This document shows positions 49,879-53,807 of a stretch of 64,000 nt of DNA, in pieces (the first letter of the stretch is position 1; each line of letters opens with the position of its first letter). Source of the stretch: Candidatus Intestinimonas merdavium (GTDB lineage Bacteria; Bacillota; Clostridia; Oscillospirales; Oscillospiraceae). The notes below the pieces were generated by a model, which ran no database searches, had not been told where the DNA came from, and saw only the letters and a list, made by a program, of their open reading frames with translations. The stretch is from positions 1-64,000 of the forward strand of contig DXCX01000033.1 in assembly GCA_019115785.1 (NCBI GenBank), given 5' to 3'. A program made the position numbers and the translations under genes.

Positions 49879-50448
49879 ATGGGATACCAACGGTACATTG
49901 CCTTTGATGTGGAGACGCCCAACCACGCCAATGACCGCATGAGCGCCATCGGCGTGGCGGTGGTGGAGGATGGGGGTGTGGCGGAGACTTATGACCTGCT
50001 GGTCGACCCTCAGGTGCCCTTTGACCCCTTTAACGTGGCCCTCACCGGCATTACCCCCGCCCTGGTGGCCGGAAAGCCCACCTTCCCGGAGGTGTGGGAG
50101 GTACTTCGGCCCGTGTTTGAGAGCGGACTGCTGGTGGCCCACAACGCCCAGTTCGATATGTCAGTGCTGGCCAAATGCCTGCGTGCCTATGGGCTCTTCT
50201 GGCGGGAGCGGGTGGACTACGCCTGCACCTGCCAGATGAGCCGGCGGTTGCTGCCCCAGCTGCCCAATCACCGGCTGGACACCCTGTGCCGCAGCCTGGG
50301 GCTGTCGCTGGACCACCACCGGGCAGGCAGCGACAGCGAGGCCTGTGGGCGTATTCTGCTCCACCATCTGGCTGCCGGCGCGTCGGTGACCCCCTTTCTC
50401 CGTACCTATGATCTGATGGGGGCACGTACGGTGCGGGCGGGCCGTTGA
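49879..50448 (+). CDS. DnaQ/PolC-like 3'-5' exonuclease
   Basis: RYIAFDVETPNHANDRMSAIGVAVVEDG; LLVAHNAQFDMSVL; LDHHRAGSDSEACGRI (DEDDh). Confidence 0.92.
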   Translation: MGYQRYIAFDVETPNHANDRMSAIGVAVVEDGGVAETYDLLVDPQVPFDPFNVALTGITPALVAGKPTFPEVWEVLRPVFESGLLVAHNAQFDMSVLAKCLRAYGLFWRERVDYACTCQMSRRLLPQLPNHRLDTLCRSLGLSLDHHRAGSDSEACGRILLHHLAAGASVTPFLRTYDLMGARTVRAGR

Positions 50449-52085: not shown

Positions 52086-53681
52086 TTATATGTCCTCACT
52101 CTGCCTGGGCGCGATCTGGGAGCATCCCACCCGCTTGAGCAGGGTCTTATCATGGTGAATGATATAGTCAAAGGTATCCCGCAGGGACAGAAACAGGCGG
52201 GGCTGGACATGATAGGTCTGACACCGAGGATTTGTGATCAGGTTGATGTGTTCCAGCTGGACTGGCCGCAGACACATGTGGATACGCCATTTTCCGGCCG
52301 CGGTCCGCAGGATAAAGTACCTCTCATCGTGCTGGAAGAGGAGACGGTGCTCAGAGCACCATTGGGCCAGGGTTTCGCAGCACTCACCGGGGCGTACTTG
52401 GCTGGTGATAGGGATGGAGTATGGGATGTCCTGCTTTGCGGTTGGCTTGCACAGACGGCAGGGAGAATAGCCGGCCTGAACGGCATCCCGGTACCGGGGG
52501 AAGCCCCTGAACTGGCTGAGTCCCGCAATCTTGGGGCAGCTCTTCACATGGAAGGTCTGATAGCCTGCCCCCGCCCAGAAGGCCAGGCCGGGATGCGTCA
52601 GCTGAAGGGCCCTGTCGCGCTGTGACGCGGTCAGCCCCTTTTGACTCCAAATGTCATCCTGATCCTGCTTTGCCTGGTAAAACCGCTTTAGGGCGTCCGC
52701 CACTTCAGCTGGCGAGACAGGGCTTGTGCTTTTCGGAGCCTCTAGGTATGGGGTGTGGGGGTGAGGGCGGCAGAGCTTGCAGGGCCGCCGGGAGCGGGCA
52801 CAGGTGTCATAGTGAAAGGTGTACCGGATCTCCCGGATCATCAGCACATGGGGGCAGCTTTTGGTGTGAAATACACGGGAGTTACCGGAATAGAGGAAGG
52901 GATAATCAGCGCGAGAGATCCACTCGGCATTTCGTTTGCGCAGAGCCTCAAAATATTCCCTTCGGCAGCAGATGCAGGCCTGATAGCCTCTTCGGATGGG
53001 GACCCGAAAGGAGGTATATCCCGGCAGATACCGAGCTTCCGGCAGACAGTCGCAATCCGAGCGGTGGAGCAGTCTGGTCTCCGGGTCATAGAGCAGCCGG
53101 AACGTGGGGGAACCCCTTTGCGCGGGAGTATCCTTGCTCCATTGCTCCGGGGGAGTATACAGTCTGCTCTGCGGGAATCCGATCCCCTTCAAAAGGGCCT
53201 GCATGGTGAGTATATTACTCAGAGCGTCATCGGCTGCCTGCGGGACCTGAATGCCATGGGCCATACAGAGCTTCTGGGGCGTTCCCACGGAGCAGGGCTG
53301 TTGGAACAGCCAGCCGAACAGATATTCGCTCAGAAAAATGGACTTGTCGGCTTTGGAACTGGCATAATCCGCATGGGAAAGCCGGAAATAGACCCGCTTG
53401 GACACTCTTGTCCACCAGCAGAGGATGTCGTCAGGCACAAGCCACGCCTGAAAAGCGTGCAATACCTCTGTTGTTTCGCCGGATGGCGGGGCATCCGTCT
53501 CCCAGCAACAAGAAGGATGCAAATCATCCTCTTGCTGTATGGGACAGTCCTTCGACCCGATTGCGGCAGAGAAGGTGTCCACCGTGTCCCAGTCCTCATT
53601 GACCCGTATGGCAGCCAACTGAATGGGACAGTTGGGGTTCTCCAAAGTCGAGACCAACTTAATATCTGTTAGAACATACAC
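52086..53681 (-). CDS. Uncharacterised protein: degenerate DnaQ-like N-terminus + three FHxxxC...PCxxC (Ada-like zinc) motifs
   Basis: Start re-placed at GTG 53681 behind GGGAGGG. N-part VYVLTDIKLVSTLENPNCPIQLAAIRVNEDWDTVDTFSAAIG. Repeats: LLHRSDCDCLPEARYLPGYTSFRVPIRRGYQACICC; VFHTKSCPHVLMIREIRYTFHYDTCARSRRPCKLCRP; TFHVKSCPKIAGLSQFRGFPRYRDAVQAGYSPCRLCKP. Confidence 0.8.
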   Translation of the reverse strand: MYVLTDIKLVSTLENPNCPIQLAAIRVNEDWDTVDTFSAAIGSKDCPIQQEDDLHPSCCWETDAPPSGETTEVLHAFQAWLVPDDILCWWTRVSKRVYFRLSHADYASSKADKSIFLSEYLFGWLFQQPCSVGTPQKLCMAHGIQVPQAADDALSNILTMQALLKGIGFPQSRLYTPPEQWSKDTPAQRGSPTFRLLYDPETRLLHRSDCDCLPEARYLPGYTSFRVPIRRGYQACICCRREYFEALRKRNAEWISRADYPFLYSGNSRVFHTKSCPHVLMIREIRYTFHYDTCARSRRPCKLCRPHPHTPYLEAPKSTSPVSPAEVADALKRFYQAKQDQDDIWSQKGLTASQRDRALQLTHPGLAFWAGAGYQTFHVKSCPKIAGLSQFRGFPRYRDAVQAGYSPCRLCKPTAKQDIPYSIPITSQVRPGECCETLAQWCSEHRLLFQHDERYFILRTAAGKWRIHMCLRPVQLEHINLITNPRCQTYHVQPRLFLSLRDTFDYIIHHDKTLLKRVGCSQIAPRQSEDI

Positions 53682-53730
53682 CGCAGTCACCCTCCCGGCC
53701 CGTATTTCTCCTGGTACCGGGATTAGAATA

Positions 53731-53768
53731 ACACATACATAGTCCAATAAAATGGACTATGTATGTGT
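53731..53768. repeat. Perfect inverted repeat, 16-bp arms, 6-nt loop
   Basis: ACACATACATAGTCCA-ATAAAA-TGGACTATGTATGTGT. Confidence 0.97.
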
Positions 53769-53807
53769 TGGAGCCAGAAGACAGGAGGGGATGGAGCTTC
53801 CCAACGC

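Follow-up and report, generated by a model that had tools for sequence, protein, structure and literature searches.

DEDDh exonucleases of the RNase_T/DnaQ type, such as ExoI, RNase T, ERI1/3'hExo, MrfB, and the respective domain of DinG, have a fold like that of residues 1-172 of the protein described here, and their motif I (D-x-E) and motif III (H-x4-D) recur in the relatives of this protein, whereas the E, H, and D of these motifs are lost in the protein itself. To our knowledge, none of these nucleases carries three Ada-like zinc modules or the C-terminal tail reported below. A separate zinc domain is present in CRN-4, a DEDDh nuclease from C. elegans (PDB 3CG7), which was also obtained as a Foldseek match for the model of the closest relative (P0008). 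As in the family studied here, its DEDDh domain is followed by a zinc-binding domain, but CRN-4 has a single, unrelated zinc domain and is eukaryotic and active. The closest working analogue is Maelstrom, whose MAEL domain has the fold of DEDD nucleases but retains just the first D, together with a structural zinc site; the domain is nuclease-dead in animals, active in a protist relative, and serves as an RNA-binding module (PMC4408791, PMC2628886). The same fold with only the first catalytic D is found in our protein. However, the zinc site of Maelstrom (ECHC) lies inside the nuclease fold, whereas the zinc motifs of our protein are separate (residues 205-411) and lie outside residues 1-172. 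Maelstrom is eukaryotic, the relation seen is no closer than the fold, and the Pfam search with our protein matched no MAEL model; the resemblance to animal Maelstrom is best read as convergence. The N-terminal domain of Ada (Ada_Zn_binding, PF02805) and DUF6233 (PF19746) align with each of the zinc modules, with relatives scoring above the Pfam cut-offs. In Ada, the methyl group is accepted by Cys38, which is also a zinc ligand (PMC10814553), whereas the modules have a His at this place, are shorter, and occur in three copies. Patchily distributed DEDD proteins on mobile or defence islands of Clostridia are also known from the diDNases, which are NrnC-like nucleases of clostridial and actinomycete genomic islands; these are DEDDy-type dinucleases, described without mention of zinc (PMC11706625).

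The 531-Amino-Acid Gene and Its Layout

The window, i.e., the whole stretch of 64,000 nt of contig DXCX01000033.1 from Candidatus Intestinimonas merdavium, contains one gene for such a protein (in the following, the window copy) with these features:

52086..53681, minus strand: whole gene, 531 amino acids, GTG start to TAA stop (frame read; start conserved with L065)
53690..53696, minus strand: GGGAGGG, ribosome-binding-like, before the GTG (read directly)
53166..53681, minus strand: DnaQ/DEDDh exonuclease domain, residues 1-172, active site lost (alignment, profile, model, Foldseek)
52953..53096, minus strand: zinc module 1, residues 196-243, with H206, C210, C236, and C239 (motif scan, 21-copy alignment)
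52758..52910, minus strand: zinc module 2, residues 258-308, with H272, C276, C301, and C304 (motif scan, 21-copy alignment)
52434..52589, minus strand: zinc module 3, residues 365-416, with H378, C382, C408, and C411, best Ada_Zn_binding match (motif scan, Pfam, 21-copy alignment, zinc profile against PDB)
52137..52433, minus strand: conserved C-terminal domain, residues 417-515, predicted helix, strands, helix (invariant columns, model)
53730..53769, no strand: perfect 17-bp inverted repeat with a 6-nt loop, between the 531-amino-acid gene and the upstream CMD-cupin gene

The 531 codons form one intact frame without a stop. An earlier note on this DNA had re-placed the start to the GTG at 53681 behind GGGAGGG, and coordinates, strand, and start were right. 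The re-placed start is supported by the nearest relative (L065), whose gene begins at the corresponding residue and has an identical AGGGTGA leader. The window copy alone gave nothing firm in NCBIfam, PADLOC, or, by sequence, the PDB, and in Pfam it matched Ada_Zn_binding below the cut-off (E 0.037; 14.5 bits against a gathering score of 23). As it is almost invisible to family libraries by itself, relatives were needed to establish its family identity. The note had recognized no named family in this architecture; likewise, we found no model for it in Pfam, NCBIfam, PADLOC, or PHROGs, and the search for a characterized family with the same three-motif layout gave no match.

A DEDDh Fold With a Lost Active Site

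The RNase_T gathering score of Pfam was passed by the relatives P0009, P0011, and P0013, while P0002, P0004, and P0006 scored just under it. With a profile built without the window copy, the exonuclease domain of the latter scored 108 bits (E 1.2e-32), compared to 38 bits for a KapD/ERI-like exonuclease and at most 6.8 for 500 shuffles. Foldseek with the AlphaFold model of the window copy yielded 35 PDB matches at E<=1e-3, and among the matches listed all were DEDDh exonucleases (ExoI, DnaQ, RNase T, ERI1/ERI3) or the helicase SaDinG with its exonuclease domain of this kind. Among the matches listed for P0008 the same kinds were found, and both models retrieved PDB DEDDh exonucleases with a probability of 1.00, CRN-4 and Cap18 included. 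Named exonucleases were also among the top matches in a viral library. The models were built from shallow alignments (five sequences) and have mean pLDDT values of 67.8 and 71.4 and a pTM of 0.34-0.37. Since this whole-chain confidence is modest, our claim is limited to the domain fold: residues 1-172 have, as modeled, the DnaQ-like fold that the earlier note had proposed to check with Foldseek, whereas domain arrangement and active-site geometry lie outside the claim.

Within this fold, the window copy keeps D6 but has lost the other catalytic residues (E8K, motif II acid to V, H151 to D, D156 to N), so that none of motif I D-x-E, the motif II acid, and motif III H-x4-D is present. The D-x-K that had been read in place of D-x-E was borne out (D6-I-K8), as was the lack of a normal motif III, whereby QAADDALSN is a remnant aligned with HCSQNDILA or HQSENDVRA of relatives. 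Motif I and motif III are present in all eight three-module relatives; motif II is uncertain even in the relatives, with E or D at the expected place in most of them and Q/A in two. As 8/8 relatives keep D-x-E and H...D, family members normally are probably active nucleases, from which the window copy is a derived and decayed form. The inactive exonuclease scaffold suggested in the earlier note is thus supported for the window copy, which has the exonuclease fold and an evidently dead site, but not as a property of the family. In P0007, a relative with one zinc module, the same residues have been lost (D-M-V, N, S) independently of the window copy. At 49879-50448 of the window, 1.6 kb from the decayed gene, lies a gene for a canonical exonuclease of the DnaQ type (RNase_T E 2.8e-22).

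The loss is confined to one part of the protein. In a leave-one-out test on eight sequences, in which positions invariant in the other seven were scored, the window copy retained 10 of 24 positions of the exonuclease domain and lost 14, whereas all 46 positions in zinc modules and tail were kept (19/19 in the tail alone). By this measure, none of the other seven sequences retained fewer than 10 of 13 positions of the exonuclease domain. W9 and N155 are also lost in the window copy, together with E8, H53, H151, and D156, and are invariant in the seven other sequences. The tree groups the window copy with the intact P0008 (100/100), with an end branch of 1.03 compared to 0.32 for this sister. 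Counted with six outgroups, changes in the exonuclease domain that are unique to the window copy amounted to 23-37, against 7-14 for P0008, while the zinc modules had similar numbers, the tail showed no consistent difference, and the variable stretch 309-364 was mixed. Judged from these alignments, the pattern is a domain-specific loss of constraint and not whole-gene decay. The gene as a whole may nevertheless have lost its function very recently, the closest relative being only 46% identical.

Zinc Modules and C-Terminal Domain

The motif [FLIVYM]H-x3-C-x(18-36)-C-x(1,2)-C occurs three times, from residues 205, 271, and 377, which agrees with the three motifs claimed before; among 20,000 shuffles of the protein, three motifs were found in none and two motifs in 2. 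Its H, C, C, and C are invariant over 21 aligned copies, and metal binding by the modules is predicted from the sequence. The Ada-like character that the note had given them was recovered by a profile of the module, which matched only four Ada N-domain sequences of the PDB at E<=10 (best E 0.076, weak but exclusive). The module aligns with Ada residues 35-74, which places its His at Cys38 and its C-x2-C at the PCKRC of Ada; the Ada_Zn_binding gathering score is passed by three relatives but not by the window copy. The full set of four Cys ligands of Ada, including the nucleophile Cys38, is not present, as all 21 aligned copies have the His. A methyl-repair role was rejected for this reason, and because the methyl-accepting Cys is replaced, the modules are predicted to be structural or binding sites instead of repair centres. 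In other Clostridia, DNA/RNA non-specific endonucleases and MBL-fold hydrolases carry one copy of the same motif at their C-terminus, which would be consistent with nucleic-acid binding by the predicted zinc modules. The C-terminus of about 100 amino acids had been left unassigned, and no counterpart was found in Pfam and the PDB; it is, however, a real conserved domain, in which the window copy keeps 19 of 19 otherwise invariant positions.

Relatives and Their Genomic Surroundings

The family was found via a distant relative from a search of related genomes and then extended from that relative. Eight relatives share the layout, which the window copy also has, of a DnaQ domain, three H-x3-C..C-x2-C modules, and a C-terminal HIN..YHxQPRxFLSLxDTFxYIxxHD domain. 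Five are from other clostridial genomes and three from elements of a viral-contig collection, one of which is clearly a phage replication module:

Genomes: G221 (P0004), G405 (P0005), G685 (P0010), G745 (P0011), G834 (P0012 and P0013, one gene across a contig break, with an overlap of 46 identical residues)
Viral-contig collection: L065 (P0008), L066 (P0009), L093/L094/L097/L098 (P0015)

The window copy is homologous to them over its full length, with 46% identity to P0008 over 530 columns and 30-33% to the others. Complete copies are rare, being found in 4 of 396 genomes of the order and 2 of 392 of the class (the window's own included in both counts), and among 330 genomes of the phylum in the window's own alone. 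No match was obtained with the window copy in 10 genomes of the same genus, nor with P0004 by tblastn in named phage and plasmid records, and PHROGs searched with three relatives gave nothing useful. The family is unnamed and patchily spread among Clostridia and phages; judged from its sequences, its usual form is probably a 3'-5' exonuclease of the DEDDh type that carries three Ada-like zinc modules and is predicted to be active.

Three further relatives (P0002, P0006, P0007) have one module and a different, CHHCC-type C-terminal half. This sister family (L029:9192-10523, L030:4172-5821, L004:8752-10128) consists of the exonuclease, one Ada-like module, a C..H..HDC-x4-C domain, and a new tail whose end reads HxRxVDGHFVT; a CHHCC domain of a similar kind seems to exist separately in L013 and L014. 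An exonuclease with a single zinc module and the tail of the three-module form is encoded at L101:613-1800. The module stands alone at L102:740-1342, where it is followed by this tail or its beginning, and probably likewise at L090:6078-6617, near a gene that by eye is relaxase-like. Module and tail therefore look like a shuffled unit.

The gene of the window copy stands by itself, flanked by an acetyltransferase gene and a CMD-cupin gene, its surroundings comprising a hexapeptide acetyltransferase, the CMD-cupin protein, a cyclophilin-like lipoprotein, a hydrolase, and an FMN reductase. A function based on an operon was rejected. Few neighbours recur near relatives, namely the hydrolase 6.5 kb from the G405 gene and, close to the G041 relative with one module, a flavodoxin/ferredoxin protein, and this was taken as coincidence. 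No defence family was found in the ten neighbouring genes scanned, and Rfam detected nothing near the gene. The inverted repeat at 53730-53769 (AACACATACATAGTCCA-N6-TGGACTATGTATGTGTT) is present once in the genome and is possibly a terminator or operator.

Among the relatives, the G745 gene is located 78 bp upstream of sbcD-sbcC on the same strand (L087:5419-10988), and a WYL regulator and a macro-domain gene are found on its other side. In the phage form, the gene is flanked by a D5-like primase gene and a block of family-A DNA polymerase and DUF2800. In L066 (955-6399) the exonuclease gene follows the PADLOC candidate defence operon PDC-M33A-B-C after 19 bp on the same strand, which suggests a fourth component of this operon or a linked defence gene. 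L065 carries serine recombinases. Two genes downstream of the exonuclease gene, for a membrane protein and a DUF4230 protein (L028:11093-12629, L065:11815-13396), are 93-95% identical between G405 and L065, although identity is only 37% for the exonuclease genes themselves, a pattern to be expected of exchangeable cargo.

A Probable Pseudo-Exonuclease That Would Bind Without Cutting

By its sequence, the window copy belongs to an unnamed DEDDh-derived family and would qualify neither as an active DEDDh exonuclease nor as an Ada repair domain. We consider it probable that it is a pseudo-exonuclease of this clostridial and phage family, which most likely binds without cutting. In the usual form, the exonuclease would trim the 3' end of DNA (or RNA), while zinc modules and tail would hold or select the nucleic acid. 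The window copy has lost the two-metal active site and would retain recognition only, whereby the target may be an end or a structure of DNA or RNA, or else a partner. The DNA-metabolism setting of the relatives (sbcD-sbcC, phage polymerase A with the D5-like primase, PDC-M33ABC) was counted in favor of this explanation.

It is rather unlikely that the gene is decaying as a whole, i.e., that it is an early pseudogene without function. The long end branch would fit, and the single copy without a match in the 10 same-genus genomes may point to a transient arrival; on the other hand, all 531 codons are free of stops, the composition by codon position is alike along the gene, the 46 invariant zinc and tail positions are complete, and no consistent excess of changes is seen outside the exonuclease domain, the variable stretch 309-364 aside. 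Very little probability is given to a nuclease that is still active via a rewired metal site of D6 and acids such as D45, D84, D85, and D152. D6, D84, and D85 are indeed kept and motif II is already non-canonical across the whole family, but E8, H53, H151, and D156 are lost together with W9 and N155, and an intact DEDD has been reported to be required for cleavage (PMC11706625). Equally improbable is a dominant competitor or immunity-type factor that blocks an active mobile-element or phage relative via shared targets or partners. The occurrence of active-looking relatives on a phage and on mobile or defence-associated elements and the conservation of just the predicted binding modules would fit such a factor, but neither an active copy in the same genome assembly nor a defence family among the ten neighbouring genes scanned was found. 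A wider reading, which we hold to be unlikely, is that of an undescribed bacterial and phage family of triple-zinc-clamp exonucleases acting in phage-host or mobile-element conflict, whose chromosomal copies have turned into dead antagonists or sensors, as a bacterial counterpart of Maelstrom.

The family, which is found in bacteria and phages and has three zinc modules per chain, comprises probably active and evidently dead members at modest distance from each other. Such an active/dead pair could be used to test which task a DEDDh protein performs after cutting stops, and whether the Ada-like His-Cys3 module, which is common on clostridial nucleases, is a nucleic-acid clamp.
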